Positions 16,665 through 47,304 of a DNA stretch of 64,000 nt are shown one piece after another. Origin of the DNA: Flavobacteriaceae bacterium (lineage in GTDB: Bacteria > Bacteroidota > Bacteroidia > Flavobacteriales > Flavobacteriaceae); contig WUAI01000010.1 of NCBI GenBank assembly GCA_009827225.1, positions 1-64,000 of the forward strand, given 5' to 3'. A program made the position numbers and the translations under genes. Position 1 is the first letter of the stretch. Each line of letters begins with the position of its first letter. The notes below the pieces were generated by a model. That model was given only the letters and a program-made list of their open reading frames with translations. It searched no databases and was not told where the DNA came from.

Positions 16665-17933
16665 TTAATTTTTTCTAAAGATAACACACGCATTGACATC
16701 TCCAAAACCAAAACTGGCCTTGGCTATAGTTTTTAATTCAGTATACAAAGGCTCCCTCGGTATGCGGGATTCATCGATTACAGAAACAATATCCGGGTGC
16801 AAATCCTCGCAATTCAGATTTGGCGCTATGAACCCCTGGTGCATCTGTAAAAGTGCCGCAACGACCTCCATACTTCCACTTGCCGCCAAGCCATGACCGA
16901 TCATCGATTTTAATGAGTTTACATATGGGAAATCTACTCCGGATCGTTTCAATGCCTTGCTCCAGTTTTCGATTTCCACAGTATCCTTTGCTGTGGCCGT
17001 AAGATGTCCGTTGATATAATCTATCTCATCGGCAGAAACTCCAGCCTCTCTTAATGCCTCTTTAATACAACGCTGTACCGCCTCACTATTGGGTGCTGTC
17101 ATACTCCCGCCATTTCTTTGTCCGCCGTTATTGACATGCCCCCCTAAAATTTCAGCATAAATGGTCGCCCCTCTTTCCCTGGCACTTTCCAATGTTTCCA
17201 GAAGCAAGGCCCCTGCGCCAGCTCCCGGGACAAACCCACTGGCCGAGGCACTCATGGGTCGGCTGCCGCGCTCAGGGTCTTCATTGTGTTTAAAGGTGGT
17301 AACCTTCATAGCATCAAAGCCTCCCCAAACATACGGACCATCATCACTACAGCTTCCGCAGAGCATCTGTTTGGCCTTACCTGCAGCAAGATGTTGATAG
17401 CCCATGAGCACAGCTTCGGTTCCTGTAGCACAAGCCGAAGAGTTGGTAGTTACCTGGTTCGCGGCACCAATTTTACCGCCCAGGTAGGCACTTATTCCAC
17501 TGGCCATGGTTTGGGCAACGGTAGTGCTGCCAAGTCGTCTCACCTGCTTGTCATCCAACTTATAAATGGCCTCTCTAAACTTTTCGACGCCACTGGTCCC
17601 GGTGCCAAAGATCACTCCCAGGTCCCAAAGCGGTGATTCTTCTTTTGATGCAGGTTGTAATCCTGCGTTAGACAGCGCTTCCATACCTGCGATCACGCCA
17701 TAGAGGATGCCGCTGCTGTTGAAATTACGCAGTTCAAGATCGGTGAAATAATCCTTTTTCTTTTCTTCGGAAATGTTAGGTTTAGCCCCTATGCAGCAGG
17801 AAAAATTAAGTTCCTTTAATTCCGGGAAATAAGACACTCCCGACTCACCCTTTTGCAGCGCTTTCTGAAATTGCTGAATGCCCACACCATTTGGAGCGAC
17901 AATTCCTAACCCGGTGATGACAACTCGCTTCAT
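16665..17933 (-). CDS. Beta-ketoacyl-ACP synthase (FabF/KAS II-like) of the PKS operon
   Basis: It catalyses decarboxylative Claisen condensation of malonyl-ACP with an acyl chain. The 422-residue product has the full KAS II-type triad: Cys168 in N-S-S-A-C-A-T-G-T, His310 in I-N-G-H-L-T-A-T, and Lys342/His347 in L-K-S-M-I-G-H-G. The usual H-G-T-x-T has Leu in place of Gly after His310, a family-specific change. It overlaps the dehydratase gene by four bases. With ACP, dehydratase and reductase it forms a compact chain-extending module. A second ketosynthase or chain-length factor is not present. Confidence 0.92.
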   Translation of the reverse strand: MKRVVITGLGIVAPNGVGIQQFQKALQKGESGVSYFPELKELNFSCCIGAKPNISEEKKKDYFTDLELRNFNSSGILYGVIAGMEALSNAGLQPASKEESPLWDLGVIFGTGTSGVEKFREAIYKLDDKQVRRLGSTTVAQTMASGISAYLGGKIGAANQVTTNSSACATGTEAVLMGYQHLAAGKAKQMLCGSCSDDGPYVWGGFDAMKVTTFKHNEDPERGSRPMSASASGFVPGAGAGALLLETLESARERGATIYAEILGGHVNNGGQRNGGSMTAPNSEAVQRCIKEALREAGVSADEIDYINGHLTATAKDTVEIENWSKALKRSGVDFPYVNSLKSMIGHGLAASGSMEVVAALLQMHQGFIAPNLNCEDLHPDIVSVIDESRIPREPLYTELKTIAKASFGFGDVNACVIFRKN

Positions 17934-18382
17934 TCCGATCTTTTTGGTATCAACATTCCACTAATGGTTCCCTGGCAAACAATAGAATCTAAGCCATTCT
18001 TCATCGAGACCTTGCATTTCAGCTTTCCAAAACGAAAATATACTTTCTCTGACAGGACGGTCACAGTTTCTCCAGGATATACAGGTTGCAAATATTGCAT
18101 ATCAGATTCGGTTAGACCCACAGTCATCTCCCTGGTTGAATTCTTCTCTATTCCATTCAGATATATGCCCAGGCAAACCAATCCGATCTGGGCCATACAC
18201 TCTGTCAAAATAACTCCGGGAGTTACCGGGTGGTCCTTGAAATGCCCTTGGTAAAAATATTCGTCCGCTTTGAAAGTGTACACTCCGCTCACCCCATTTT
18301 CATTTACATCATGCAACTGGTCCACGAAAAGAAAAGGCGGTTCGTAGGGTAATTGTTCGATTATTGAAGAGTAATCCGACAT
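17930..18382 (-). CDS. FabZ-like 3-hydroxyacyl-ACP dehydratase of the PKS operon
   Basis: It dehydrates 3-hydroxyacyl-ACP to trans-2-enoyl-ACP. The 150-residue hotdog protein carries the catalytic block G-H-F-K-D-H-P-V-T-P-G with His47 and, 14 residues later, Glu61 in L-T-E-C-M-A-Q, the same spacing as the FabZ His/Glu pair. It overlaps the ketosynthase gene by four bases and lies 3 bases after the SDR gene. It should act in the operon's own acyl-extending cycle rather than in housekeeping fatty acid synthesis. Confidence 0.9.
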   Translation of the reverse strand: MSDYSSIIEQLPYEPPFLFVDQLHDVNENGVSGVYTFKADEYFYQGHFKDHPVTPGVILTECMAQIGLVCLGIYLNGIEKNSTREMTVGLTESDMQYLQPVYPGETVTVLSEKVYFRFGKLKCKVSMKNGLDSIVCQGTISGMLIPKRSE

Positions 18383-18385
18383 AGG

Positions 18386-19159
18386 CTATCTAAGGCTTTC
18401 ACCGCCATCGGCTTTTAAAATCACTCCGTTGATCCAACCGGCCTCATCCCTGGCTAATAGGTAGACGACATTGGCGATATCTTCCGGAACTGTGAGTCGG
18501 TTAAACGGATTTCGTAACTTGGAAAATTCTGCCATTTTCTTGCTTTCGGGTATTCTTCCAAAGCTGGGTGTAAGTGTGACACCAGCTTGTATGCAATTCG
18601 TTGTTATTCCATGTGGAGCAAGTTCTACGGCCATCTGGCGCATTATGGCTTCCAAAGAAACTTTAGCGATGGATACCGCTCCGTAATTTTTAATGGCCTT
18701 GGTATTCCCTTCACTGGTAAAGGCTATATTTCGGGCATTTTCAGCAAATTTATTATTCGCTAATAAGACTTTAGTCCAATCATACCATGATAATGCCATG
18801 GCTTCCCAGGTTACTCGAAGATCTTCTCGAGAAAGCCCTTCCCCTTCCGAAGTAAAAAAAGGTTTCACGCTTCCTTTTGCTATACTATGCACCAATAATT
18901 TGACGGATCGTAGAGGTAAGCTAGCAGCTATCTGATCGATCGTTTCCGATTTTAATGCATCTTTATTGTACGATCGAACTTCAACTCCCTGGGACCTCAT
19001 AAAGGAAAGTTCCGTTTCCAACTGTTCTAAATTGACCTTTCGATCGCGATGCACCAAACAAATATGCAAGCCGTGTGACGCCAGTTTTCTAGCTGTTGCT
19101 AGCCCTAGTCCGCTACTCCCACCTAATATGACTGCCCACTGGTCTTGAAATTCCTTCAT
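18386..19159 (-). CDS. SDR oxidoreductase, enoyl-ACP-reductase-like (YX6K), of the PKS operon
   Basis: The 257-residue product is a short-chain dehydrogenase with cofactor loop G-G-S-S-G-L-G-L-A (13-21), an L-V-H-S-I-A segment (89-94) and Tyr159/Lys166. The Tyr and Lys are separated by six residues, not three. YX6K plus the V-H-S-I segment are hallmarks of FabI/FabL-type enoyl reductases rather than FabG ketoreductases. It is therefore the likely enoyl reductase of the chain-building module. No separate ketoreductase is encoded here, so a housekeeping FabG may be borrowed, or this enzyme may do both steps. It abuts the PKS gene with no gap. Confidence 0.82.
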   Translation of the reverse strand: MKEFQDQWAVILGGSSGLGLATARKLASHGLHICLVHRDRKVNLEQLETELSFMRSQGVEVRSYNKDALKSETIDQIAASLPLRSVKLLVHSIAKGSVKPFFTSEGEGLSREDLRVTWEAMALSWYDWTKVLLANNKFAENARNIAFTSEGNTKAIKNYGAVSIAKVSLEAIMRQMAVELAPHGITTNCIQAGVTLTPSFGRIPESKKMAEFSKLRNPFNRLTVPEDIANVVYLLARDEAGWINGVILKADGGESLR

Positions 19160-20212
19160 TTAAAACTCTATTAGAATTCTTTGGGCCGAAAAACCGGGTC
19201 CAAAACTCAACATAAGACCTAGTTCTCCCGGTGATATATTTTTTTCGAGAAATCGCTCCAAAACATACAATACCGTAACACTGCTCATGTTTCCATACAA
19301 TTTAAGAACTTCTTTGGTATCGTCAATGTTTTTACCCAGACTTCCAAATAAGTCTTCCACGGTTTGAACAATCTTCTTGCCTCCAGGGTGAAAAACCAGG
19401 TGATCTATTTGCTCGATAGTGAGCCCGTTCTCTTCCAAAAACGGATGAATGATCTTCGGAAAGTGAGCGGCGATCTTATCTGGAACTTCCTTATCCAGGA
19501 TCATCTGTAATCCGGTATTCACCAGTTTAAAACCCATCATATCCGTGGCATCGTAGAAGTGATACATGGCTTCATCCAGGATTTTGGGTCCTTTTGCATC
19601 TTCTTCTGAACTTAATAGCACACAGGCAGCACCATCACCAAAAATGGCAGCACTTACGATATTCACCATGGAAAAGTCTTCCAATTGAAAAGTGGCAGTA
19701 GGCGACTCCAAGGCTATTACCGTCGCTTTTTTACCGGGATTGGCCTTCAAAAAATTATAAGCATAGATCATCCCTGAAATTCCGGCCGCGCAACCCATCT
19801 CCGTTACCGGCAATCTTACCACATCTTGTCTTAGTTTCAAGTCGTTGATCAAATAGGCATCTACCGATGGAATCATAATACCCGTACAACTTACCGTGAT
19901 GATAAAATCGATATCGGTGGGAAGCCATCCTGCCTTGTCCAGCGCTTTTTGAAGGCAATCGCGGCCCAGATTTTTCATGCCTTCCACATAGATATCATTT
20001 CGTTCTTCAAACGAAGAATTGAAGAACACCTCATGGGCGTCCATAATGGAATAGCGTCTGTCTACCCCGGCACCTTCAAAGATCTTGATGACTTTGCGCC
20101 TGAAGCGATCCTCCTGTCCTGTAAGCCAGGTTTCGACATAAGGAATAATCTCACTGGTCTCTCTGGTATAGGGAGGTAATTCTTTTGCAACCGTTGTAAT
20201 TTGTACGCTCAT
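19160..20212 (-). CDS. Type III polyketide synthase (chalcone/stilbene synthase superfamily)
   Basis: A homodimeric condensing enzyme that extends an acyl starter with malonyl units and cyclises the chain to a pyrone, resorcinol or phloroglucinol. The 350-residue product has the canonical triad Cys141 (T-E-M-G-C-A-A-G), His275 (F-H-P-G-G) and Asn308 (Y-G-N-M-S-S), plus the C-terminal S-F-G-P-G loop (336-340). It overlaps the methyltransferase gene by four bases and abuts the SDR gene. The adjacent type II fatty-acyl enzymes suggest an ACP-bound or CoA acyl starter and an alkyl-aromatic or pyrone product; this is inference. Confidence 0.95.
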   Translation of the reverse strand: MSVQITTVAKELPPYTRETSEIIPYVETWLTGQEDRFRRKVIKIFEGAGVDRRYSIMDAHEVFFNSSFEERNDIYVEGMKNLGRDCLQKALDKAGWLPTDIDFIITVSCTGIMIPSVDAYLINDLKLRQDVVRLPVTEMGCAAGISGMIYAYNFLKANPGKKATVIALESPTATFQLEDFSMVNIVSAAIFGDGAACVLLSSEEDAKGPKILDEAMYHFYDATDMMGFKLVNTGLQMILDKEVPDKIAAHFPKIIHPFLEENGLTIEQIDHLVFHPGGKKIVQTVEDLFGSLGKNIDDTKEVLKLYGNMSSVTVLYVLERFLEKNISPGELGLMLSFGPGFSAQRILIEF

Positions 20213-20919
20213 TTACTAATGATCCATTGATAACGAAATGCCCATCTCCATCGAATGAAATGACTCCCGCTAATGTTTTTAGAATAGTTGATCAATTCCT
20301 GTTTTTTAAACGCTCGGGCAATAGAAACAAGCCCATCGTGCTTGGCAATTTTGGTTTTGATGGCCAAACCACTAAAGATTTTGAATAATTGAAATGCCCA
20401 TTTGCTTCTATGTAAGTCGTTCACTACAACTCCAACTTTCGCTTCTTTGGTAATGATTTCCATAATCTGCACTATTTCAGCATCCTGAAAATGATGCAAA
20501 AATAAAGTGCACAAAGCAATGTCGAACTCAGGTAAACTGTCCATGGAGTTTAATACATTCAATCTTTGATAGGTAATATTGTTATAATCAGCCGATTTCA
20601 ATCTCGCCTGATCAAGAATATTCTCGTTCGCATCCACACCAATTAAATGTATCTTCCGATCTGTCATGAATCTCATGCCCGCGATTTGCCGAAGCATTTC
20701 TCCATCACCACAGCCCAGGTCTACAATGGTAAGAGTGTTATCTATTGAGGTGCTCCGTATTAGTTTTTTGATACCCTGAAGTGTTATACGATTCCCACCC
20801 AACCAGGTATTGACGACTTTCAGGTCCCTAAGCAAGCGTTCTAACTCCTTACCTCCTAGTTCGAAGTTATCCATGATCTCTTCTTCAGAAGAACGATATT
20901 TGGAAGCGTAGCTTATCAT
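20209..20919 (-). CDS. Class I SAM-dependent methyltransferase of the PKS operon
   Basis: The 236-residue product has the SAM motif V-D-L-G-C-G-D-G-E (66-74), an acidic ribose-binding residue in I-G-V-D-A-N (about 100-105) and the L-C-T-L-F-L-H-H-F motif. It looks like a small-molecule O- or C-methyltransferase. It overlaps both neighbours by four bases and sits between the PKS and the FAD enzyme, so it most likely methylates the PKS product. The N-terminal 60 residues may form a substrate cap. Regiochemistry cannot be read from the sequence. Confidence 0.87.
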   Translation of the reverse strand: MISYASKYRSSEEEIMDNFELGGKELERLLRDLKVVNTWLGGNRITLQGIKKLIRSTSIDNTLTIVDLGCGDGEMLRQIAGMRFMTDRKIHLIGVDANENILDQARLKSADYNNITYQRLNVLNSMDSLPEFDIALCTLFLHHFQDAEIVQIMEIITKEAKVGVVVNDLHRSKWAFQLFKIFSGLAIKTKIAKHDGLVSIARAFKKQELINYSKNISGSHFIRWRWAFRYQWIISK

Positions 20920-22046
20920 ACTGAAATTATATCGCCATGTGTTCTTTTGATTACACCTTGAACCAGCCCGGGGAATCGTTGGGCCACTCTAAACCCAATA
21001 TCAGAGGTGCTGGGATTAAGTAACAGGCGTTGTATTAACCTTCCCGTTCTTAAACGTTGTCCAAAAGCTCGTTTCCACGAAACCTGATATTGTCGTTCTA
21101 CTGCAGCTCTTTCTAGGGATTCGCGAAATGCGTCGATTAATAATTCAGAAACAATCTTGGCACCGTGAATCGCCATGGACATACCATTGCCACACAAAGG
21201 ATGAATCAATCCAGCGCTGTCGCCCACCATAAGGATATGATCCTCTACAGCATTCTTAGGTTCAAAGGAAATCTGACTAATTGTTAGAGGCTTTTCGAAT
21301 AGCGGCTTCGCATTATTGAAAAAATGCCTTAGGTGTTTATTCCGACTCATTACTTCTTCCTGAAATGTATTGATATCGTTGCAATCTTTGAACGAATTGT
21401 AGGTAACTAAATAGCATGCATTCACTTTTTGATCTTCCACCATGGAGAGGCCACAGTAGCCCCCTTCAAAATTATGCAGTGCTACGAGGTTGTCAGGGAA
21501 ATCATACTGATAATGTGCCTTCACGGCCAGCCAAGGTGATTTACGATCGATGAACTTTCTTCCCAATCGTTTGTCGAGTCGGGACCTCTTTCCAAAGGCA
21601 CCCAAAACATATTTTGCCAAATAGGAAGATCCTTTCTGAGTTTCTACTTCAAAATAGTCTCGGGCGTTTAAACTAATGTCGGTAGCACATTCTTGTCTCA
21701 CCTCTAACTGGTTTGAAGCTAAGTTGTGCAAACTATGATCGAGCGTGTATCGTGAAATACCAAAACCTCCTAAAGGGAGTGTGGTGCGCAGGGTTTGTCC
21801 GCTCTGGGCACTGATTTCGAATTCGGTGATTTCAACGGCACCAATGGAAAAAGGATCCAATCCAAGCCATTTCAGGTATGCTATCACTTCATTTGAGATG
21901 TATTCACCACAGACCTTATGATTCGGATATTGATTTTGCTCCAGGAGAAGTACCTTGATATCGAATTTCGATAAATGCAATGCCGCAGTAAGTCCCGCCA
22001 AACCTCCTCCTACGATCAATACATCATATACTACGTCCCTATCCAT
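20916..22046 (-). CDS. FAD-dependent oxidoreductase (geranylgeranyl reductase/monooxygenase-like) of the PKS operon
   Basis: The 376-residue product has an N-terminal FAD Rossmann motif G-G-G-L-A-G-L (13-19), an adjacent K-V-C-G-E-Y motif (44-49) typical of the geranylgeranyl-reductase-like subgroup, and the second FAD motif V-G-D-S-A-G-L-I-H-P (274-283). It could hydroxylate an aromatic ring or reduce or oxidise an alkyl chain. As first gene of the operon it starts 28 bases after the T-tract of the preceding terminator. The gene set here mirrors, by function rather than proven homology, the PKS/methyltransferase/flavoprotein trio that makes phenolic lipid quinones in Streptomyces (srsABC). 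Confidence 0.87.
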   Translation of the reverse strand: MDRDVVYDVLIVGGGLAGLTAALHLSKFDIKVLLLEQNQYPNHKVCGEYISNEVIAYLKWLGLDPFSIGAVEITEFEISAQSGQTLRTTLPLGGFGISRYTLDHSLHNLASNQLEVRQECATDISLNARDYFEVETQKGSSYLAKYVLGAFGKRSRLDKRLGRKFIDRKSPWLAVKAHYQYDFPDNLVALHNFEGGYCGLSMVEDQKVNACYLVTYNSFKDCNDINTFQEEVMSRNKHLRHFFNNAKPLFEKPLTISQISFEPKNAVEDHILMVGDSAGLIHPLCGNGMSMAIHGAKIVSELLIDAFRESLERAAVERQYQVSWKRAFGQRLRTGRLIQRLLLNPSTSDIGFRVAQRFPGLVQGVIKRTHGDIISV

Positions 22047-22073
22047 ATTTTAAAGTACGGTTGATTTTTTCAG

Positions 22074-22106
22074 AAAAAAAAATCCCAAACAATAATGTCT
22101 GGGATT
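22074..22106 (-). terminator. Intrinsic terminator between ompA-like gene and PKS operon
   Basis: On the minus strand the stem TGGGATT/AATCCCA inverted repeat (22081-22087 and 22100-22106) ends in a nine-base T tract (22082-22074). It lies about 20 bases after the OmpA-family stop codon and 27 bases before the first PKS-operon ATG. A TTTT on the plus-strand side makes it weakly bidirectional. Confidence 0.85.
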
Positions 22107-22127
22107 TTGGGAATAATTTATTAGGTA

Positions 22128-22838
22128 TTAATTACCATCCGCTTCTTTTTGTGCTTCTTCTTTCATCTTTTCATTCGGAACAAGAACAATATTCACCCGG
22201 CGGTTTTGGGCCCTTCCCTCGGCCGTTTCGTTGGTTGCCACAGGACTGGTTTCACCAAACCAGTTGGTGCTGAATCGTCCCGGGCTTAATCCTTTGACCC
22301 CTGTGAAATAATTAGTTACCGCTTCTGCGCGATTTTTGGAGAGGGTCATATTATATTCTTCGGAACCTACACTATCGGTATGTCCAACCACTAGTACGTC
22401 GGTATCCGGAAATTCTATCAATATATCCGTTAACTTATCCAGAGTAGCCCTGGAAGCCTCATTGATATTATACTTATTGGTGTCAAAATTAACTCCACTA
22501 TTCTCATCGAAGGTCACGACAATACCATCGTCAACTCGCTCTACGACTGCACCTGGAATTTCTTCCTCTATTTTCTGGGCGTTCTTATCCATCTTGTCTC
22601 CGATGATAATACCTGCAGCACCGCCTACTACTCCACCAATGACCGCTCCAATCTCACCATTTCCACCTTTCCCAACATTGTTTCCAATGATGGCTCCTAA
22701 AATAGCTCCACCAGCAGCTCCTATAACGGCTCCTTTTTGCTTATTGTTAGCATTCTTGGTGGCTTCACAGCTCGAGAATGCGAATACCAGGCTTAAACTT
22801 ACCAGGAAGATCCCCAGTCTTTTAAATATCTTTTTCAT
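22128..22838 (-). CDS. OmpA-family lipoprotein with glycine-zipper segment
   Basis: The 236-residue product has a lipoprotein signal (F-S-S-C lipobox, Cys about 24) and a Gly/Ala/Ile-rich glycine-zipper stretch (about 36-80) likely to lie in or on the membrane. The C-terminal OmpA peptidoglycan-binding domain has V-V-G-H-T-D-S-V-G, L-S-x-x-R-A-E-A-V and N-R-R-V-N-I. It should anchor the outer membrane to peptidoglycan. Its start shares one base with the stop of the upstream lipocalin-like gene (TAATG), so the two are translated together. Confidence 0.92.
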   Translation of the reverse strand: MKKIFKRLGIFLVSLSLVFAFSSCEATKNANNKQKGAVIGAAGGAILGAIIGNNVGKGGNGEIGAVIGGVVGGAAGIIIGDKMDKNAQKIEEEIPGAVVERVDDGIVVTFDENSGVNFDTNKYNINEASRATLDKLTDILIEFPDTDVLVVGHTDSVGSEEYNMTLSKNRAEAVTNYFTGVKGLSPGRFSTNWFGETSPVATNETAEGRAQNRRVNIVLVPNEKMKEEAQKEADGN

Positions 22839-26516: not shown

Positions 26517-26839
26517 TGGATTTAAGAGACCAATTACAAAACCTGTTTCCCGATCATAAGGCTTCCGAAGATCCGAAACCGGAAAAATCGACGGTCTGGC
26601 TCCAGGACGATCCCCTGATTTGCAAATATGAGAAGCGGAAAGGAAAGCCCATTACAATTATTGAAGGTTACAATGGCGCCACTTCAGATTTCAAGCAACT
26701 GGCTAAAGAACTGAAGCAATTGCTCAGTGTAGGCGGTAGTTTTAAAAATGAACAGATCATCATTCAAGGCGATTATCGGGATCGAATTATGGATTTTCTG
26801 AAAGCCAAAGGTTTTAAAGTAAAACGCGTTGGCGGATAA
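26516..26839 (+). CDS. SUI1/eIF1-like translation factor (YciH family)
   Basis: The 107-residue product has a variable N-terminus and a C-terminal SUI1 fold with G-K-P-I-T-I-I-E-G-Y, L-A-K-E-L-K-Q-L-L-S-V-G-G-S and I-I-I-Q-G-D-Y-R-D-R-I-M. Bacterial YciH-type proteins resemble eIF1 and are linked to start-codon fidelity or stress translation. Its ATG shares one base with the preceding stop codon, and its end overlaps the next gene by 11 bases. Confidence 0.9.
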   Translation: MDLRDQLQNLFPDHKASEDPKPEKSTVWLQDDPLICKYEKRKGKPITIIEGYNGATSDFKQLAKELKQLLSVGGSFKNEQIIIQGDYRDRIMDFLKAKGFKVKRVGG

Positions 26840-27755
26840 TACTTTACACATTGCGAACGGTGATGCCTTTGCCGAGCGGCTGAAGGAACTTGATTATGGG
26901 GGTACTATACTTAGCTGGCGGGAAATATTGGTAGAAGGACCTGTAAATACCCGGGTTTTCTCTGATGAATTCAATACAGTTCGAAAAAAGTTTCTCGCGC
27001 AATACTTTTCAGAATCAGGCAGCGATTGCGATTCATTTGCAGCATCCTTCACTAATTTTGACTTCGATACGGTTAACCACATAGTATTATGGTTTGAATA
27101 CGATCTCTTTTGCCATGTGAATGCCGCGGCCGTGATATATTATCTGTCTTCTATCGAATGGAGTGGACCTATTTTCTTGGTTTGCAGCGGAATTCAGAAA
27201 GATTCGGAGAAATTATTTGGACTAAATGAATTGAATAATTCGAAGCTTTATGAAGAGTACGAAAGCAAAGTGAGATTGAGTGAAACTGATATTGATCTCT
27301 GGGCAAGATTCTGGCAAATCTACTCATCTGAAAACCACAACCAACTGAAATCCCTTGATATTTCCGAAGAAACCTTTCCCTATCTTAAACCTTGCATTAA
27401 TGCGCATCTAAAGAGATTTCCTGATAAGAATACAGGGCTCAACGAGTTGGAAAAAATAGTGTTGGAATGTATTCGGGAAAATACTTTACAATCAGAATTT
27501 CAACTATTGGGATGCCTGCTGAAAGATCAGGGATACTATGGGTTTGGTGATTTACAATGGGAGAAAACGATCGAGTCGATGCGGCCATTTTTTGAATCCC
27601 AGGACGTACTGCAGCTCAATGATAAAGGCACTGCTTTGCTGAATAAAAAATATAATGCACTTCCTATCCTTAAAGACGACAGCCGATTTGGAGGAACTTC
27701 CAAATACAATTACTTTTACAACGAGGAAATCAATCAATTGGAATCCGCAACATGA
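26829..27755 (+). CDS. DUF1835-domain protein
   Basis: The 308-residue product has the DUF1835 opening L-H-I-A-N-G-D and then S-W-R-E-I-L-V-E-G-P (about 29-38). A hydrophobic/acidic middle (L-W-F-E-Y-D-L-F-C) and a winged-helix-like C-terminal part follow. The only start giving the complete family N-terminus is TTG at 26829, inside the SUI1 gene. Members of this family are uncharacterised; their place next to SUI1 is seen here only once, so no function is claimed. Confidence 0.8.
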   Translation: MADNTLHIANGDAFAERLKELDYGGTILSWREILVEGPVNTRVFSDEFNTVRKKFLAQYFSESGSDCDSFAASFTNFDFDTVNHIVLWFEYDLFCHVNAAAVIYYLSSIEWSGPIFLVCSGIQKDSEKLFGLNELNNSKLYEEYESKVRLSETDIDLWARFWQIYSSENHNQLKSLDISEETFPYLKPCINAHLKRFPDKNTGLNELEKIVLECIRENTLQSEFQLLGCLLKDQGYYGFGDLQWEKTIESMRPFFESQDVLQLNDKGTALLNKKYNALPILKDDSRFGGTSKYNYFYNEEINQLESAT

Positions 27756-28624
27756 GAATACCAGAATCCGAGCTTATTTTAAATCCAGATGGCAGCATTT
27801 ACCATCTAAACCTGAAGCCGGATGAATTGGCTCATACCATTATTACCGTTGGCGATCAGGACAGGGTCGCCCAGGTTTCCAAACATTTCGATACCATCGA
27901 AGTAAAAAAACAGCACCGAGAGTTCATTACACACACCGGAACCTATGCTGGTACCAGACTCACTGTTATTTCCACAGGTATTGGACCGGACAATATAGAT
28001 ATCGTCCTCAATGAACTCGACGCCTTGGCCAATATCGATTTTGAATCCCGAACGATTAAAAAAGAGCACACCGCCCTGAAACTGATTCGGGTGGGAACAT
28101 CAGGAGCCTTGCAGCCCGATATACACGTAGATAGTTTTGTCGCCAGCGAATTTGGAATTGGGTTCGACAATTTATTACACTTTTATGGTAATACAGAAGA
28201 GGTGTTTAATTCAGATTTTACTCAGGCATTTATTGATCAAACTAACTGGAATCCTAATAATTCAAGGCCTTACGTGATCAGTGCTGATCCGGATTTATTG
28301 GCACAGTTCACTTCGGAAGACATTATAATAGGAGTTACAACCACCAATGTTGGATTCTATGGCCCGCAGGGAAGAGTGCTTCGCCTGGCGTTGCAAGATC
28401 CTACCCTGAACGATAAAATCGCCGCCTTTTCCTATCGCAATAAGCGCATTACTAATTTGGAAATGGAGACTGCGGCCATTTATGGTATGGCAAAATTACT
28501 CGGCCACAGTGCCTTATCGCTCAATGTAATCCTGGCTAACAGGCCCAATGGTACTTTTAGTGCAGATCCTAAGGAGTCGGTGGAACGACTTATTACCAAA
28601 ACTTTAGAGATGCTTGTTCGATGA
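27752..28624 (+). CDS. Nucleoside phosphorylase (uridine phosphorylase-like)
   Basis: Phosphorolysis of nucleosides to base and ribose 1-phosphate. The 290-residue product has V-G-D-Q-D-R (phosphate-binding Gly/Asp/Arg, about 33-38), S-T-G-I-G-P-D-N, R-V-G-T-S-G-A-L, and the nucleoside-binding N-L-E-M-E-T-A-A-I-Y (about 231-240). It overlaps both neighbours by four bases. Pairing with a substrate-binding protein that lacks a signal peptide is unusual for nucleoside salvage. Confidence 0.88.
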   Translation: MRIPESELILNPDGSIYHLNLKPDELAHTIITVGDQDRVAQVSKHFDTIEVKKQHREFITHTGTYAGTRLTVISTGIGPDNIDIVLNELDALANIDFESRTIKKEHTALKLIRVGTSGALQPDIHVDSFVASEFGIGFDNLLHFYGNTEEVFNSDFTQAFIDQTNWNPNNSRPYVISADPDLLAQFTSEDIIIGVTTTNVGFYGPQGRVLRLALQDPTLNDKIAAFSYRNKRITNLEMETAAIYGMAKLLGHSALSLNVILANRPNGTFSADPKESVERLITKTLEMLVR

Positions 28625-29484
28625 AAAATTTTCTGATAGGAGGTGTCCCCGAGCATTTTAATTTACCATGGTATTTGACCATGAGGAATAAAGAATACCA
28701 TGAAGTGGGTATCAACTTGCGATGGAAGGATTTTTATGGCGGAACGGGGCAAATGTGCAAGGCATTGCGAGAGAAGGAAATCGACATGGCGGTTATCCTT
28801 ACTGAAGGAATCGTTCGGGATATAATTAACGGAAACCCATGTAAAATTGTGCAGGTCTTTGTGGAGTCTCCCTTGATTTGGGGAATACATGTTGCGAAGA
28901 ACTCAGATTATCTTAGTCTTTCCGACTTAAAAGGTAAGGCGGCTGCTATCAGCCGCTTTGGTTCCGGATCTCATCTCATGGCCTATGTGAATGCAGAAAA
29001 AATGGGCTGGGATACTGAAAAAGATATAGAATTCGAAGTGATCAAAAATCTGGATGGTGCCCTTGAGAATCTCCCGCAGGGAATTGGTGATTATTTTATG
29101 TGGGAGAAATTCACTACCAAACCGTATGTGGATGACGGTCCTTTCCGATTGGTCGGTGAATGCCCTACCCCCTGGCCTTGTTTTGTGATTGCGGTAAGGG
29201 AGGACATATTGAAGAACGACCCTGAAGCTGTGACGCAAATACTTGAGATCATCAACAATACTACTCGTGAATTTAAAGATATTCCGTCCATCGATCATAC
29301 CATTGCCAATCGATACGAACAAAAATTGGAAGACGTAAGAGAATGGCTCTCTCTTACGCGATGGAGTCAAAATAACCTGAATGTCAGCACTTTAGATGCA
29401 GTTCAAGGTGCATTATTACAACTAGATCTTATCGATTCGGCGATTCCGAATGAAAAAATTCTTCATTTTTTAGAAAAAAATTAA
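28621..29484 (+). CDS. Substrate-binding-fold protein without signal peptide (PBP2, NMT1/Ca3427-like)
   Basis: The 287-residue product has a type 2 periplasmic-binding-protein fold of the NMT1/SsuA-like kind: G-G-V-P-E-H-F-N-L-P-W-Y at the start, L-S-D-L-K-G-K-A-A-A-I-S-R-F-G-S-G-S-H near the middle, and a C-terminal helical cap. It has no signal peptide or lipobox and no ABC permease or ATPase beside it, so it is probably cytosolic. It overlaps the phosphorylase gene by four bases and may bind a thiamine-, pyrimidine- or other base-like ligand; the ligand is not identifiable here. Confidence 0.8.
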   Translation: MKNFLIGGVPEHFNLPWYLTMRNKEYHEVGINLRWKDFYGGTGQMCKALREKEIDMAVILTEGIVRDIINGNPCKIVQVFVESPLIWGIHVAKNSDYLSLSDLKGKAAAISRFGSGSHLMAYVNAEKMGWDTEKDIEFEVIKNLDGALENLPQGIGDYFMWEKFTTKPYVDDGPFRLVGECPTPWPCFVIAVREDILKNDPEAVTQILEIINNTTREFKDIPSIDHTIANRYEQKLEDVREWLSLTRWSQNNLNVSTLDAVQGALLQLDLIDSAIPNEKILHFLEKN

Positions 29485-32976: not shown

Positions 32977-34140
32977 TTATTTTAAATTCTGAAGAATAAA
33001 TTCCAGCTTGTCGCTTTCATTGGAGACACTATCAAAGGCGTGGTTCTTATGAATGATTTCGGAAGCCAGTCCTTCTTTCTGCCACTTGGAGATGATAGGC
33101 AGATTTTCAATCGAGACTTTTCCGGCTAACAGATTATCAAGGTTTTTGTCCTTTTGATAATGATTATAGATCTTCTTCAATCCGGTGAGATACAAATGAT
33201 CTTTGGTGAGTCCGCCACCACGATGTGCCCTCAGTGAAATGGCATAGGCCTCTTCCCTATTTAGTTTGTACCTGGTGTGAAGCAGGTCGAAAGTGGCACA
33301 GAAATCATAACCCTTCCTTAAGCTGTCGGCGGCAAGTACTCTGTACGAAAGTTCTTTAAGGCGGTATAACGTAAGACATCCACTCATATACTCACTGAAA
33401 ACGGCCAGGCCTTCCTGTGTTTCCAGATTCTTTGGAAAACCGTTTCTGAAAATTTTGAGGGATTGGTCGGCTCCATTGAAGGTAGTCACCATATGCACCC
33501 CGATCTCATGGTTGGCCAATACCTTTAACTGATTCGCACTAAAGCGATGGTTTTTCTTCAGTACCAGGGTCTTTGTATTATTCTGAACCATGGCAGCGGC
33601 AGAGATCTTGGTAGAAAACTTCAGATTAAAACTGAAATCAAATTTCTTGGTAAACTCTGCGAAATACTCCGCAGCTTCAGTGGCATTGAACACCGGAAAC
33701 ATTTCCTGATCGTACTCTTCATCTTCAAAATGCAAGATGAATTTTGCATTATCCACATCTTTTTGAGTAGGCGTACCAAATGACTTTAAGGAATTAAAGT
33801 AAAACTTTGGCCCCATTCCAATGGTTTCGATGCATTCTATCAATCCGGAATAATCGTAAATTACATCACGGTAAAAAGCCCGTGTCTCTTCATCTTTAAT
33901 GCTGTCTATATCCTGTGAAAAAAGCTCCTGGTGTAATTTGTGAGCATTGAAATCGATCTTCCGATACTTGAAATTCGGATTGACATTGTATTTCGAGGAG
34001 AAAAAATTCCGCTTTTCCTGCTCAATATTTATCGGGTTGATATAATTGAGTAGCTCTATGCGTTTCACCAATTTGTTCAGATTGGAGTCAATTCTGAATA
34101 AATTAGGATGCGTGTTTACAATGGTTTCGGGATACGTCAT
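32977..34140 (-). CDS. DUF1704/QEGLA-motif metallopeptidase (MATCAP-like)
   Basis: From ATG 34140 the protein has 387 residues. It carries an H-E-I-G-V-H zinc-peptidase motif (about 211-216) and Q-E-G-L-A (about 242-246), whose Glu is placed to complete the zinc site. The family includes the eukaryotic tubulin detyrosinase MATCAP, while bacterial members are often called flavohemoglobin expression-modulating QEGLA proteins. A frame reaches 34176, but the ATG at 34140 lies one base after the upstream stop codon and is preferred. It closes a three-gene cassette with an amidohydrolase-like and an ATP-grasp gene. Confidence 0.88.
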   Translation of the reverse strand: MTYPETIVNTHPNLFRIDSNLNKLVKRIELLNYINPINIEQEKRNFFSSKYNVNPNFKYRKIDFNAHKLHQELFSQDIDSIKDEETRAFYRDVIYDYSGLIECIETIGMGPKFYFNSLKSFGTPTQKDVDNAKFILHFEDEEYDQEMFPVFNATEAAEYFAEFTKKFDFSFNLKFSTKISAAAMVQNNTKTLVLKKNHRFSANQLKVLANHEIGVHMVTTFNGADQSLKIFRNGFPKNLETQEGLAVFSEYMSGCLTLYRLKELSYRVLAADSLRKGYDFCATFDLLHTRYKLNREEAYAISLRAHRGGGLTKDHLYLTGLKKIYNHYQKDKNLDNLLAGKVSIENLPIISKWQKEGLASEIIHKNHAFDSVSNESDKLEFILQNLK

Positions 34141-34141
34141 A

Positions 34142-34972
34142 CTACATTTTGTGGGCACTGTAAAAGGCATCCGCATGCTCTTTTACTTTGTACTGAAGTT
34201 GCCGCTCAATAGCCGCTACCACTTCAGGATAAATTACCTGCCCCATCTCGTCACAGTATATTTTTTTGAATTCAGTAGCCAAAACTAAGGTATTTTGGAA
34301 GTTTTTGGTAATAAATTTCAGGAAATATCCATTTCCGAAGAAGGTATCATTGATTTTAGAAGTGGCCTCAATTTCATGTGGAAGTGAAAGTTCGCTCAAT
34401 GATTGCCGCCAGGATTCCACGGATTCACCAAACCGATCGTTATCAATATTTGAGGTTCCAAGATTGATCACCGGAACTTCACGATCCCAGCGTTGCCAGT
34501 TATAACTGTGCATATCGTACACCACAGAAACACCAAACATCTCTTCTATTTTGGATATCAGTGCACGGGTAACATTATAAAAATTGTTGTGTTTACTGAG
34601 GCTCTTTGCATGTTGTTCTGCGGAAAGTTTCTCCCGCCATAGCTTCTTTCCCCATGCGTCTTCATAAATAGCGTTATCCGGATCGCGATTGAGGTCGTAT
34701 TCAAAGCGACTATCACAACCGGCGATTACAATCGGATGGGTTTTCACCATTTCCTTGGTACAGGGATCTTCCTCAAACCAACGGTCGTATTCCGAATGCA
34801 AACAATTATCCCACAACTCCTTGCGAAACTGGTGCCCGTCATGCACAGCACCGCACACATAAGGCACATAATCATCGATTTTTAAGGTAAATGAATAATC
34901 TTCTGCCACTGCCTCAAAAGTGGCTTCCTTCTCAATAAGAGATATGATTTCTGAAATAGGAAGTCTTTGCAT
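34142..34972 (-). CDS. N-formylglutamate amidohydrolase-family protein
   Basis: The 276-residue product has FGase-family landmarks: C-G-A-V-H-D-G-H-Q-F near residue 40, I-A-G-C-D-S-R-F-E-Y-D-L-N-R, and V-V-Y-D-M-H-S-Y-N-W. The conserved His/Asp/Glu/Arg resemble the zinc amidase site. It is not beside histidine-degradation genes, so a HutG role is unlikely. It lies between an ATP-grasp ligase (12 bases upstream) and the DUF1704 peptidase (1 base downstream), pointing to cleavage of an amide made by that ligase. Confidence 0.85.
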   Translation of the reverse strand: MQRLPISEIISLIEKEATFEAVAEDYSFTLKIDDYVPYVCGAVHDGHQFRKELWDNCLHSEYDRWFEEDPCTKEMVKTHPIVIAGCDSRFEYDLNRDPDNAIYEDAWGKKLWREKLSAEQHAKSLSKHNNFYNVTRALISKIEEMFGVSVVYDMHSYNWQRWDREVPVINLGTSNIDNDRFGESVESWRQSLSELSLPHEIEATSKINDTFFGNGYFLKFITKNFQNTLVLATEFKKIYCDEMGQVIYPEVVAAIERQLQYKVKEHADAFYSAHKM

Positions 34973-34984
34973 GAATCGATTAAC

Positions 34985-36013
34985 TTAAGCGTCGCTAACG
35001 TGCTTACGTAATTTCTGGCGTCGTTCAAATGCAGTTACCCGTTCTTCAACCTTGTCTTCTACAAAATCGATGACCTTTTCCTGGACACGGGTCTTATAAA
35101 CTTTGTTCATATAAGTGATTCCTCCCGGAGACATTACATTAACTTCAACAAGCATACCGCCGATGACATCGATCCCTACAAAATAGAGTCCGTCTTTAAC
35201 CAGTTTAAGCCCAATACGGCGACACAATTCTTTCTCTGCCTTGGTTAAATGATGCTTTTGAACAGTTCCTCCTGCCGTGACGTTAGAACGGTGATCTTCC
35301 TCTCCGGGCACACGGCGCATGGCGCCAATTGGCATTCCGTTTAGCATTAGAATTCTTACATCTCCCTGATCCGCACCTTCTATATAATCCTGTAGGATCA
35401 CATAATTTGAGGTTCCGTCTTTATTGTCGATATAAAAATCCAACAAAGAATTGATACTCTTCATCGCACTTTTCTCGATGAGGATCACCCCAGAGCCACC
35501 GAAACCGTTCAAGGGTTTCAGGATCATTCTTTCCGGTCCTTCTTTGATGGTTTTCTTTAGATAATCCTTGTTCTTGGTGACATGAGTGCGTGGAATGATC
35601 TCATTGCGCTCATCTTCAAACACCGCAGTATACAGTTTGTTATTCGCCCGGCGAATGCCGTCAAGGTCATTCATAATAAAGACATCGTCCTTTACACTAT
35701 CCAGGAAATTGAGCATGATCATATCCAATGGCGGATTGCTCCTGAGAATGATCACATCAAAACCTGCCAGGGGTAACATTTCATCGTAGAATTCCGATTT
35801 GGAGTGAAAAGACTTCAGGTTGTTAGAGATTTTCTCGGCGCGTTTCAAACATCTGCAAAAAGCATAGGCAACACTGTCCCTTATGGTTAAATTGGCCGGT
35901 GTGGTGATGGCAATACCGTGTTTTCTCTTCGCAAATTCCTGGATCATTGCTAGTGTGGAATCATTTTCAGCATCCATCTCCTCCCAGGGATACATTATAA
36001 AGCAAACATTCAT
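34985..36013 (-). CDS. Glutathione synthetase-like ATP-grasp ligase
   Basis: The 342-residue product has the GshB-type ATP-grasp layout: L-R-S-N-P-P-L-D in the N-terminal part, P-L-N-G-F-G-G-S-G-V (ATP-binding small loop, about 170-179), R-x-x-x-x-G-E-x-D, and V-E-V-N-V-M-S-P-G-G (metal-binding, about 288-297). It joins a carboxylate to an amine with ATP. The window encodes bacillithiol synthesis (bshA) and shows no gshA, so the product is probably not glutathione. It is first gene of the cassette, with a -7 element upstream. Substrate unknown. Confidence 0.88.
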   Translation of the reverse strand: MNVCFIMYPWEEMDAENDSTLAMIQEFAKRKHGIAITTPANLTIRDSVAYAFCRCLKRAEKISNNLKSFHSKSEFYDEMLPLAGFDVIILRSNPPLDMIMLNFLDSVKDDVFIMNDLDGIRRANNKLYTAVFEDERNEIIPRTHVTKNKDYLKKTIKEGPERMILKPLNGFGGSGVILIEKSAMKSINSLLDFYIDNKDGTSNYVILQDYIEGADQGDVRILMLNGMPIGAMRRVPGEEDHRSNVTAGGTVQKHHLTKAEKELCRRIGLKLVKDGLYFVGIDVIGGMLVEVNVMSPGGITYMNKVYKTRVQEKVIDFVEDKVEERVTAFERRQKLRKHVSDA

Positions 36014-37102: not shown

Positions 37103-38428
37103 TTATTTTACTTCCTCGTAATGATCGTCCCAATCTTCCACTCGTGGAGGTCCGATCTTTCCAACCGATTTCGCCACCAACATCGAAACAGTAGCATCAC
37201 CGGTTACGTTGATCACCGTTCTGCACATATCCAATGGCCGGTCCACAGCGAAAATAAGTGCCAGTCCTATCGCCAGTTTATCGGATGGGAACCCGATAGA
37301 TTCCAAAACGATCACCAGCATAACCATTCCGGCTCCTGGTACAGCTGCAGAGCCAATCGACGCCAATAAAGCCGTTAGTACAATCGTTAGTTGATCGGAA
37401 AAACTCAAGTCGAAGCCTAACGCCTGCGAAATAAAGACGGCCGCAACCCCCTGGTACAAACTGGTACCATCCATATTGATGGTCGCTCCTACAGGAAGTA
37501 CGAAACTCGATACTTCCTTATCAACTCCGATATGCTCTTCTACCCTTTCCATGGTTACAGGTAAGGTCGCTGCACTCGAACTGGTAGAGAATGCCAATAG
37601 TTGCGCCGGACTTATTTGCTTCAGAAACCAAAACGGATTCTTCTTCACATAGCTTCCAACGATCAATAGATAGAATACCACCATAATTGCCAGGCCTAAA
37701 ACAACTACCCCAGAATATTTCAGCAATGCCAATAACAGATCAGGATCACCTGAGCTAACTACGACATTCGCAAGCAGTGCGAATACGGCGTACGGCGCTA
37801 TCAACATAATAAGGTCCACCATCTTGAGTACGACAAAATTGAGGGAATCAAAAAATCGTTTTAGTGGTTTGGCCCGTTCTTCTCCAATTAGCAGCATAGC
37901 GATGGCAAATAGAATGGTGAAAAATATCACTTGTAACATCAAGCCATTATTACTGAACGCATTGAAGGCATTATCCGGAACCATGTCCACCAGGAACTGA
38001 AGGGGGCCACTGCTTTTCTGCCTACCAGCTTCTACTATTTTGGACTGTACCCCACTGTCCTGTGAATAAGTTTCAGTGAGTGTCGCTATGGTTTCTTCGG
38101 AAATCCCATCTCCCGGCTGTAAAGCGTTCACCAACATTAACCCAATGCTAATCGCAACCACGGTGGTTCCGATATAGGTGACCATCGTACGCAGACCGAT
38201 ATCCCTGAATTTTGAAATATCTTTTAGATCAGAAATACCTTTGATCAATGATGCGAGGATAAGCGGAATCGCAATCAATTTCAGCATTTTAACGAAAATG
38301 GTACCCACAGGATTGATCCAGTCGCCCACAAATTTTTGGCCGCCATCAACTCCGGTCATAATAAAACCGAAAACAATACCCAGCACCATTCCAATAAGAA
38401 TTTGCCAATGTAGTTCTAGTTTCCTCAT
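37103..38428 (-). CDS. Dicarboxylate/amino acid:cation symporter (GltP/GltT type)
   Basis: The 441-residue inner-membrane protein has about eight transmembrane helices and the re-entrant serine-rich loop A-F-S-T-S-S-S-A-A-T-L-P (near 276-287). It also has N-M-D-G-T-S-L-Y (cation/substrate site) and the P-G-A-G loop, with substrate-binding D-R-x-x-D-M-C-R-T-x-x-N-V-T-G-D near the end. It imports glutamate/aspartate or C4-dicarboxylates with Na+ or H+. It lies 15 bases downstream of aroC on the same strand. Confidence 0.93.
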   Translation of the reverse strand: MRKLELHWQILIGMVLGIVFGFIMTGVDGGQKFVGDWINPVGTIFVKMLKLIAIPLILASLIKGISDLKDISKFRDIGLRTMVTYIGTTVVAISIGLMLVNALQPGDGISEETIATLTETYSQDSGVQSKIVEAGRQKSSGPLQFLVDMVPDNAFNAFSNNGLMLQVIFFTILFAIAMLLIGEERAKPLKRFFDSLNFVVLKMVDLIMLIAPYAVFALLANVVVSSGDPDLLLALLKYSGVVVLGLAIMVVFYLLIVGSYVKKNPFWFLKQISPAQLLAFSTSSSAATLPVTMERVEEHIGVDKEVSSFVLPVGATINMDGTSLYQGVAAVFISQALGFDLSFSDQLTIVLTALLASIGSAAVPGAGMVMLVIVLESIGFPSDKLAIGLALIFAVDRPLDMCRTVINVTGDATVSMLVAKSVGKIGPPRVEDWDDHYEEVK

Positions 38429-46170: not shown

Positions 46171-47304
46171 TTAACTGGGAATCTTATCCAATGCCTTTTC
46201 GTAGATCTCTTCGTAGATAGGCACAATGTTTTCCGTATCGAATTTACGGGCAGATTCTTTTGCTTGCTTTTTGAATCTCATCAAAGTATCCGGATCCTTG
46301 AGAATCGCAAGTGCATTTTTCGCCATGTCATCCACATCACCAATTGGCGACAAGAATCCACTCACACCGTGAACATTAACTTCTGCAAGTCCGCCTGCAT
46401 TACTTGAAATTACAGGAACTCCCGTAGCCATGGCCTCAAGTGCAGCCAGTCCAAAACTTTCTTTTTCAGAAGGCAATAAGAACAGATCACTGAAGCACAA
46501 AATCTTATCGACTTCTCCACTGTTCCCAAGGAAGACTACTTGCTCTTCAATACCCAGTTCATAGCTCATACGTTCAGCTGTAGCTTTTTCGGGCCCCTCA
46601 CCCACTATCATAAGCTTTGAAGGAACCTCCTTTTGCACTTTGTAAAATATCTGGATCACATCTTCGATACGTTTTACAGGTCTCAAATTACTGACATGAG
46701 TAATTATTCTCTCATGTTCTTCAGCCATAAGGTCTCGCTGGCAATCGGTATAGGTGTTGGTATGTTTAGCCATATCGATAAAATTAGGAACCACATGAAT
46801 TTCCTTTTTGATATCGAATAGTCGGAGCGTGTCGTCCTTTAGACTTTTGGATACCGAAGTAACCACATCACTATTATTAATGCTGAAGGTAACGGCAGGT
46901 TTATAAAACGGATGGTTCCCCACGAGGGTAATGTCTGTTCCGTGTAAAGTGGTCACAAAAGGAATGTGAATTCCTTCCTCAGCGAGCATTTTCTTGGCCA
47001 TATAAGCCGCATAGGCATGAGGAATTGCATAATGAACATGAAGTAGTTCAATTTTGAAAAGCTTTACCATATCCACCAATTTGCTGGAGAGGGCCAGCTC
47101 ATACGGCTGAAAATGAAACAAGGGGTATTGAGGTACAGTTACTTCATGAAAATGAATATTCCATGACAACAATTCAAGTTTCACCGGTTGCTTGTAGGTA
47201 ATAAAATGAACCTCATGTCCACGTTCCGCCAGGGCAATACCTAACTCCGTTGCCACTACTCCACTTCCACCAAAGGTGGGATAACAAACTATACCTATTT
47301 TCAT
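46171..47304 (-). CDS. bshA: N-acetyl-alpha-D-glucosaminyl L-malate synthase (bacillithiol)
   Basis: A GT4 glycosyltransferase joining UDP-GlcNAc and L-malate, the first step of bacillithiol synthesis. The 377-residue product shows the BshA start G-I-V-C-Y-P-T-F-G-G-S-G-V-V-A-T-E-L, H-V-H-Y-A-I-P-H-A near 97-105, and E-K-E-S-F-G-L-A-A-L-E-A-M-A (UDP-sugar site). Its ATG shares one base with the stop of the GH3 gene (TAATG). It identifies bacillithiol as the likely thiol of this organism. Confidence 0.92.
   Translation of the reverse strand: MKIGIVCYPTFGGSGVVATELGIALAERGHEVHFITYKQPVKLELLSWNIHFHEVTVPQYPLFHFQPYELALSSKLVDMVKLFKIELLHVHYAIPHAYAAYMAKKMLAEEGIHIPFVTTLHGTDITLVGNHPFYKPAVTFSINNSDVVTSVSKSLKDDTLRLFDIKKEIHVVPNFIDMAKHTNTYTDCQRDLMAEEHERIITHVSNLRPVKRIEDVIQIFYKVQKEVPSKLMIVGEGPEKATAERMSYELGIEEQVVFLGNSGEVDKILCFSDLFLLPSEKESFGLAALEAMATGVPVISSNAGGLAEVNVHGVSGFLSPIGDVDDMAKNALAILKDPDTLMRFKKQAKESARKFDTENIVPIYEEIYEKALDKIPS

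Follow-up and report, generated by a model that had tools for sequence, protein, structure and literature searches.

A three-gene ligase, amidohydrolase and metallopeptidase cassette shared by two bacterial phyla, with a possible role in an osmotically regulated amide-bond cycle

Human MATCAP/TMCP1 (KIAA0895L) is a tubulin tyrosine carboxypeptidase. It removes C-terminal residues of tubulin, and members of its family also remove glutamates (PMC10499314). In the tubulin tyrosination cycle, MATCAP or VASH works with the ATP-grasp ligase TTL. In the bacterial RimK-RimB and RloC-RloA systems, an ATP-grasp protein is encoded beside a peptidase. A hypoosmotic link is described for Rlo: the Pseudomonas aeruginosa rlo operon couples an ATP-grasp protein to glutamate-cutting proteases that are required in hypoosmotic medium, and deletion of rloC, the ATP-grasp gene, rescues growth of a triple protease mutant in that medium (PMC12239564). 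Here we describe a cassette of three genes in a 64,000-nucleotide stretch of a Flavobacteriaceae bacterium (the window; assembly GCA_009827225.1, contig WUAI01000010.1, positions 1 to 64,000 of the forward strand). The genes encode a GshB-like ATP-grasp ligase, an amidohydrolase resembling N-formylglutamate amidohydrolase (FGase) and a MATCAP-type metallopeptidase; the last two proteins are called FGase and MATCAP below. The layout is that of RimK-RimB and RloC-RloA, an ATP-grasp gene beside a peptidase gene. The RimB and RloA peptidases are retropepsin-like, whereas the cassette hydrolases are members of PF05013 and PF08014 with matching folds.

Judging from sequence, we give a probability of about 0.55, slightly better than even, to the reading that the three enzymes maintain, in the cytosol, an amide-bond cycle under osmotic control that acts on the C-terminus of a peptide or protein, with ligase and FGase as an opposed pair and MATCAP as a trimming peptidase. 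The ligase would attach an amino acid at the expense of ATP, linking the amino group of that residue to the C-terminal carboxyl of an acceptor peptide or protein, and FGase would take off what the ligase adds. Glutamate is the first guess for the added residue because the namesake of FGase cuts formyl-glutamate. MATCAP would trim residues from the C-terminus of either this acceptor or the cycle product, and could act without the other two enzymes. Falling outside salt would probably be the trigger for induction. As the target, a protein tail is about as likely as a free small peptide. The enzyme classes, an ATP-grasp ligase and a carboxypeptidase, match those of the tubulin tyrosination cycle, a likeness of classes and not of substrate. 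To our knowledge, no tubulin is to be expected in these bacteria.

In the window the three minus-strand genes lie almost without gaps, ligase first, then FGase and MATCAP. The ligase gene (34985..36013) encodes 342 amino acids and was assigned by Pfam and NCBIfam profiles and invariant ATP-grasp residues. The FGase gene (34142..34972; 276 amino acids) was assigned by PF05013, an AlphaFold2 model with an M14-like fold, and invariant residues. The MATCAP gene (32977..34140) was assigned by PF08014, a model and metal-site residues. Its ATG at 34140 is spaced 1 nt from the FGase stop (34142). The longest open reading frame (ORF) begins at 34176 and gives 399 amino acids; the start at 34140 (387 amino acids) is probably the right one, because the extra residues of the longer reading score low confidence in the structural model (segments 1-4 and 6-14). 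Upstream of the ligase, TACATTTG at 36065-36058 fits the Bacteroidota -7 promoter motif TAnnTTTG, with no good -33 motif seen by eye. No RNA element was matched in the window by Rfam at gathering scores. An mscS gene adjoins the ligase. With one mscS query, such a gene was found between symporter and ligase in 7 of 80 relatives, 5 of which have it adjoining the ligase, and downstream in a further 2; it was taken as local synteny and not adopted as a partner.

An earlier note on this DNA had read the three genes as a maker and two breakers of amide bonds, and had proposed a survey of gene neighbourhoods for the same trio. The survey found the trio, a likely amide-bond maker with two likely hydrolases, conserved, in 73 of 80 relatives, in joint occurrence among 247 genomes and in another phylum. 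The relatives' scan covered one genome per species; the best 80 of 561 loci were kept, all from Flavobacteriaceae or Bacteroidia lacking a further name. Ligase and FGase stood upstream of MATCAP in 73 of these, with median intergenic gaps of -1 and -4 base pairs (bp; 74 pairs each, measured on longest ORFs, so that overlaps are overstated). In the remaining seven (four Arenibacter, Flagellimonas hadalis, Maribacter flavus and Croceivirga radicis), MATCAP follows an SDF-family symporter gene and both partners are absent from the locus; genome-wide searches of the seven found FGase in none and only weak GSH-S_ATP matches (at most 73.1 bits) in all. Among 247 Bacteroidota genomes, PF08014 was found in 15. 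Strong matches to PRK12458, the ligase subfamily model (at least 396 bits; one of them, in G002, just below the curated cut-off), numbered 16 and came from 14 genomes, all among those 15. Every one of the 16 lies within 2.5 kb of a MATCAP gene, and the best match elsewhere in the 247 genomes reached 214.8 bits. Cassette-type FGase is present in 13 of the 14 genomes, the exception being G053. G186, the one MATCAP genome outside these 14, has a solitary, distant MATCAP.

Outside Bacteroidota, a non-random sample was inspected: 21 plasmid records chosen for variety from at least 127, plus one phage record. Two lineages of the cassette were recognized, each present in both Bacteroidota and Pseudomonadota. 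Lineage A has the window order ligase-FGase-MATCAP. Lineage B has the order FGase-MATCAP-ligase, with an N-terminal domain of 240 amino acids on MATCAP and a ligase only 27-30% identical to that of the window. Pfam scans of two such proteins gave no match for the 240-amino-acid domain, which did not resemble FGase in an alignment; no profile comparison was run. Two genomes (L022 and L023) carry a lineage-A ligase and FGase alongside a lineage-B MATCAP and ligase. Both Photobacterium loci have an FGase-MATCAP fusion and a ligase of lineage A, which shares 61 and 60% identity with the window ligase. Rhizobiales plasmids have all three genes at 13 of 14 inspected loci, 12 with an uninterrupted lineage-B trio and one interrupted by introns; in the latter, Sinorhizobium medicae pMl3 (L165, 2302-7014), the FGase match is in two pieces with two group II intron reverse transcriptase genes in between. 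The Phyllobacterium zundukense locus is decayed. FGase-MATCAP fusions were found in a Bacteroidota genome (G045), in both Photobacterium and in Vibrio sp. HDW18, and they are further evidence of joint function. In flavobacteria the trio is commonly flanked by aroC-SDF and, at the opposite end, by DCC-MutS2, which could suggest that unrelated genes are merely held together by local synteny. The trio also occurs away from those flanks (Aquimarina) and in another order (lineage B), and the fusions together with the presence of the trio on plasmids of another phylum argue so strongly against synteny that we regard it as hardly credible.

The MATCAP and ligase trees yield the same A/B split, each lineage having members in two phyla. 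Lineage B forms a single group with support of 100/100 (MATCAP) and 99/99 (ligase). Support for lineage A is weak in the MATCAP tree (61/45) and 99/99 in the ligase tree, which was rooted with a single Legionella GshB as outgroup. The cassette is a real cross-phylum unit, and its joint occurrence in two lineages and two phyla gives the three genes a shared function that can be tested. MATCAP genes without adjoining partners came from Legionella, two Pseudoalteromonas, Aeromonas and one phage; a gshA-gshB pair lies about 8 kb from MATCAP in the Legionella locus. In Legionella adelaidensis (L160), the standalone QEGLA gene stands between dapA (plus a gene for 70 amino acids) and murI, both concerned with cell-wall precursor supply. 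Pseudomonas phage Y1 (L174, an unverified record) has a standalone MATCAP-family frame of about 435 amino acids. Phage cargo was considered and rejected: the window MATCAP query matched one of 50,697 phage records, and that MATCAP stands alone.

The joint presence and absence of the partners was followed on a lineage-A tree of 88 MATCAP rows (the 80 scan loci, the window, four other Bacteroidota and three Vibrionaceae; lineage B was left out). Ligase and intact FGase agree in all 88 rows, with five changes on the MATCAP tree, or four without Vibrio HDW18. These changes may be read as losses because the rows lacking the pair nest among rows that have it; the tree itself cannot separate gain from loss. 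Vibrio HDW18 was coded as lacking FGase because DMYAYN replaces DxHSYN and EEAP replaces EEDP in its fused FGase domain; the 17 kb examined at that locus held no ligase, the rest of the genome not having been searched for one. Patiriisocius marinistellae (L041:8122-8954) was scored as FGase-present; its FGase is split into two ORFs beside an intact ligase and MATCAP, through early decay or a sequencing error. Lineage B has one discordant case, G053. On this pattern, ligase and FGase would form one functional pair from which MATCAP is separable.

The window ligase carries the GSH-S_N (84.9 bits) and GSH-S_ATP (179.4 bits) domains and passes PRK12458 (442.1 bits, cut-off 408). Many ATP-grasp residues are invariant in an alignment of 14 cassette ligases. 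Annotations name such ligases glutathione synthase or synthetase. Domains and catalytic loops are shared with E. coli GshB (1gsa), the best PDB match. The ligase might accordingly be read as an ordinary glutathione synthetase, with FGase and MATCAP degrading glutathione or related gamma-glutamyl peptides. Of the two glutathione synthase equivalog models, PRK05246 (cut-off 272) is passed by the window ligase (280.4 bits) and the Photobacterium ligase (284.6), while TIGR01380 is missed by the window ligase (233.4 bits, cut-off 299.05) and one lineage-B ligase fails PRK05246 (218.3). Unlike GshB, the cassette ligase has a subfamily model of its own, found with MATCAP in 14 of 14 genomes, and no ligase this strong was found away from MATCAP in the 247 genomes. 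No gshA was found in the window genome (99.28% complete, 80 contigs): PF04262 and PF04107 each gave no match there and detected the E. coli positive control. Over 13 cassette genomes, the window genome among them, PF04262 had no match in any and PF04107 none in nine; the other four matched PF04107, two at 221-223 bits and two at 71-77, and these count for a glutathione role, as does the fact that Rhizobiales make glutathione. BshC was present in 16 of 16 genomes searched, including all 13 with the cassette, and bshA lies in the window at 46171-47304 (TIGR03999, 563.8 bits, cut-off 273.7). Because bshA and BshC are present and gshA was not found, glutathione is unlikely as the product of the window ligase, a judgement on the window genome and not on every host of the cassette. 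The earlier identification of bshA and the doubt over glutathione drawn from it are both borne out, and we judge a glutathione cassette quite improbable. In bacillithiol users, a GshB-like ligase should not be taken as proof of glutathione.

The window FGase matches PF05013 (46.7 bits, cut-off 28.9). It shares the fold and PF05013 motifs of HutG (2q7s, 2odf) but scores far below the HutG equivalog model TIGR02017 (17.5 bits, cut-off 278.75). H44, E67, E68, D69, N95, R96, D153, H155 and E234 are invariant in 12 cassette FGases and likewise in 48 sequences from the window and flavobacterial relatives; the N-R pair and the late Glu recall, as we take it, the site of M14 carboxypeptidases. The AlphaFold2 model (pLDDT 92.2) was compared by VIA-align, which takes only candidates proposed by Foldseek. 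The best match was FGase 2q7s (Z 24.6, root mean square deviation (rmsd) 2.3, 237 residues aligned, about 19% identity), followed by 2odf (Z 21.8, rmsd 2.7, 229 aligned) and, after the FGases, by M14 carboxypeptidases such as 2c1c (Z 12.3, rmsd 3.9, 209 aligned). A phage poly-gamma-glutamate hydrolase (3a9l; Z 10.8, rmsd 3.8, 171 aligned) ties with many M14 carboxypeptidases. Cytosolic carboxypeptidases (CCP/AGBL) were not among the listed matches, which excludes nothing. Sequence searches of the PDB with the window FGase and with a cassette-FGase profile gave no credible relative, the kinship being visible by fold only. At 14 Bacteroidota loci (G211:C5, G171:C42 and 12 more), an FGase of a second type has an ATP-grasp frame of 481-541 amino acids about 2 kb away, with a GCS2-family protein between the two in both genomes searched. 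This is likely another ligase/hydrolase pair, and it fits FGase as the counterpart of a ligase.

The window MATCAP matches PF08014 with 318.8 bits (cut-off 27). It belongs to the QEGLA family of TIGR02421, though it falls under the cut-off of that model (297.9 bits, cut-off 338.65), which the Photobacterium fusion passes (448). We found no tested activity behind the TIGR02421 name. Most inspected annotated plasmid records call the protein 'flavohemoglobin expression-modulating QEGLA motif protein' and one reads tyrosine/phenylalanine carboxypeptidase domain; the QEGLA name says nothing about the chemistry of most inspected bacterial members. The earlier note had described an HExxH-type peptidase akin to MATCAP. 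The metallopeptidase H-E motif with its QEG was confirmed, but the spacing is HExxxH (HEIGVH), with the distal Glu supplied by QEG. H223, E224, H228 and E255 (399-amino-acid numbering) are invariant in 14 MATCAP sequences, and the site aligns with HEIGTH and EEGLA of human MATCAP. Kinship to MATCAP held up: human MATCAP (7z5g) is the best structural match of the model (pLDDT 88.6; Z 25.0, rmsd 2.9, 292 aligned), and the next matches are far lower, among them a Shewanella lipoprotein (3u24; Z 14.2, rmsd 5.1, 295 aligned) and the M32 carboxypeptidase 3hq2 (Z 12.0, rmsd 4.3, 307 aligned). The two proteins also share an N-terminal segment, P-x-N-x3-E-x3-F-F-x-S-x-Y-x2-N-P-x-F-x-Y. Their identity is about 20%, and only the window protein is encoded beside a ligase and an FGase.

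Searches by sequence gave human MATCAP 29.2 bits against the window protein and 27.5 against the Photobacterium protein, both of lineage A, and 16.3 and 15.6 bits against two lineage-B proteins; it was not among the matches listed for two standalone proteins. Closeness to human MATCAP thus appears to be ordered A, B, standalone, consistently over a small set of six queries, as scores and not as a tree. A bolder, unlikely version of the cycle would make the cassette a mobile bacterial C-terminal tail code, in which the ligase writes on the tail of a conserved cytosolic protein and FGase and MATCAP erase, as TTL/TTLL, CCP and MATCAP do on tubulin, the eukaryotic detyrosinase having been recruited from lineage A. 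The cassette could serve as a bacterial setting for studying how tubulin-tail editing arose. All three Vibrionaceae loci inspected (L153, L154 and L155) carry a MaoP/DUF413-like gene upstream of the cassette, and in each its product has an acidic C-terminus. MaoP was not adopted as the tail acceptor; it ends in Tyr in only one of the three, and hdfR-maoP is presumably an old gene pair.

The osmotic link comes from the single set of expression data that turned up. In an RNA-seq study of Photobacterium damselae RM-71, a GshB gene (RS17020) was up 38.4-fold and a QEGLA gene (RS17025) 27.5-fold at 1% as compared with 3% NaCl; the two locus tags are adjacent, and rimK is likewise in the top 20 (PMC10308900). 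A drop in external salt is probably what turns the cassette on. Of systems already worked out, rlo is the nearest in logic. The low-salt induction would suit a small-molecule version, in which ordinary amino acids are built into a free peptide, an osmolyte or storage compound, that the cassette also breaks down, without a protein acceptor. N-acetylglutaminylglutamine amide (NAGGN) is a model for such an osmolyte. This version overlaps the amide-bond cycle proposed above where the acceptor is a free peptide. Beyond the low-salt induction, it gains from the presence of the cassette in distant hosts and from an SDF symporter of the glutamate/dicarboxylate type that precedes the cassette in many flavobacteria. 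The window symporter (GltP/DctA-like, a neighbour outside the core) lies at 37103..38428 on the minus strand (PF00375, 418.1 bits); the 80 relatives' loci hold 56 SDF-ligase pairs within 3 kb (median gap 61 bp), and the symporter is not upstream in seven Aquimarina loci. The small-molecule version gains also from the flanks of 12 Rhizobiales loci, where no small ORF (18-90 amino acids) recurs within 700 bp of the cassette, a result by which a precursor of a ribosomally synthesized and post-translationally modified peptide was rejected as well. Small ORFs that recur in 73 flavobacterial loci seem, from their positions, to lie over the upstream symporter or the downstream DCC gene in different reading frames. 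On the other side, the eukaryotic MATCAP enzymes trim protein tails (PMC10499314), and co-induction of the ligase with the hydrolases at low salt would be odd for an osmolyte due for breakdown. We hold the small-molecule version to be somewhat less than an even chance.

A rhodanese resembling mercaptopyruvate sulfurtransferase, often accompanied by a 108-amino-acid-like protein, separates ligase from FGase in Winogradskyella, Psychroserpens and relatives (for instance L025:5770-6938). Such a gene is inside the operon in at least 17 of the 80 flavobacterial loci, and the one that was scored reached 215.9 bits against the 3-mercaptopyruvate sulfurtransferase model, below its cut-off of 250. Ligase and hydrolases could then act in thiol salvage on a cysteine-containing conjugate, a reading that BshC, present in 16 of 16 genomes searched, would also favour. 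Most of the 80 operons show no rhodanese, and the same cassette occurs in Rhizobiales and Photobacterium, whose thiol is glutathione and not bacillithiol. Thiol salvage is in our view a poor prospect.

Several observations weigh against the amide-bond cycle itself. MATCAP lacks adjoining partners in 5 of the 22 inspected plasmid and phage loci, so it occurs outside the cassette too. G053 retains a lineage-B ligase and MATCAP without FGase. The window ligase does pass PRK05246, and the rhodanese genes of some operons hint at sulfur chemistry outside such a cycle. That the P. damselae genes belong to this cassette is inferred from their adjacent locus tags and from two other Photobacterium records.

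A role in defence received no support from PADLOC, which had no match for the three window proteins or for one lineage-B MATCAP. Neighbourhoods of the ATP-grasp/FGase type are said to have been described by Iyer et al. in 2009 in work on amidoligases, which may already contain part of this. We found no paper on the trio in the open-licence literature, and PMC4431377, from a search for amidoligases, makes no mention of FGase, GshB or DUF1704.

Two other gene groups were seen in the window. At 26829-29484, three plus-strand genes overlap by 4 nt; one has no NCBIfam match, one is weakly like uridine phosphorylase, and one is weakly like SsuA/TAXI substrate-binding proteins, apparently with no signal peptide. 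A minus-strand run at 16665-22838 holds a DpgA-like polyketide synthase (19160-20212, under the model cut-off) and a geranylgeranyl-reductase-like FAD enzyme (20916-22046), and is possibly a small biosynthetic cluster.

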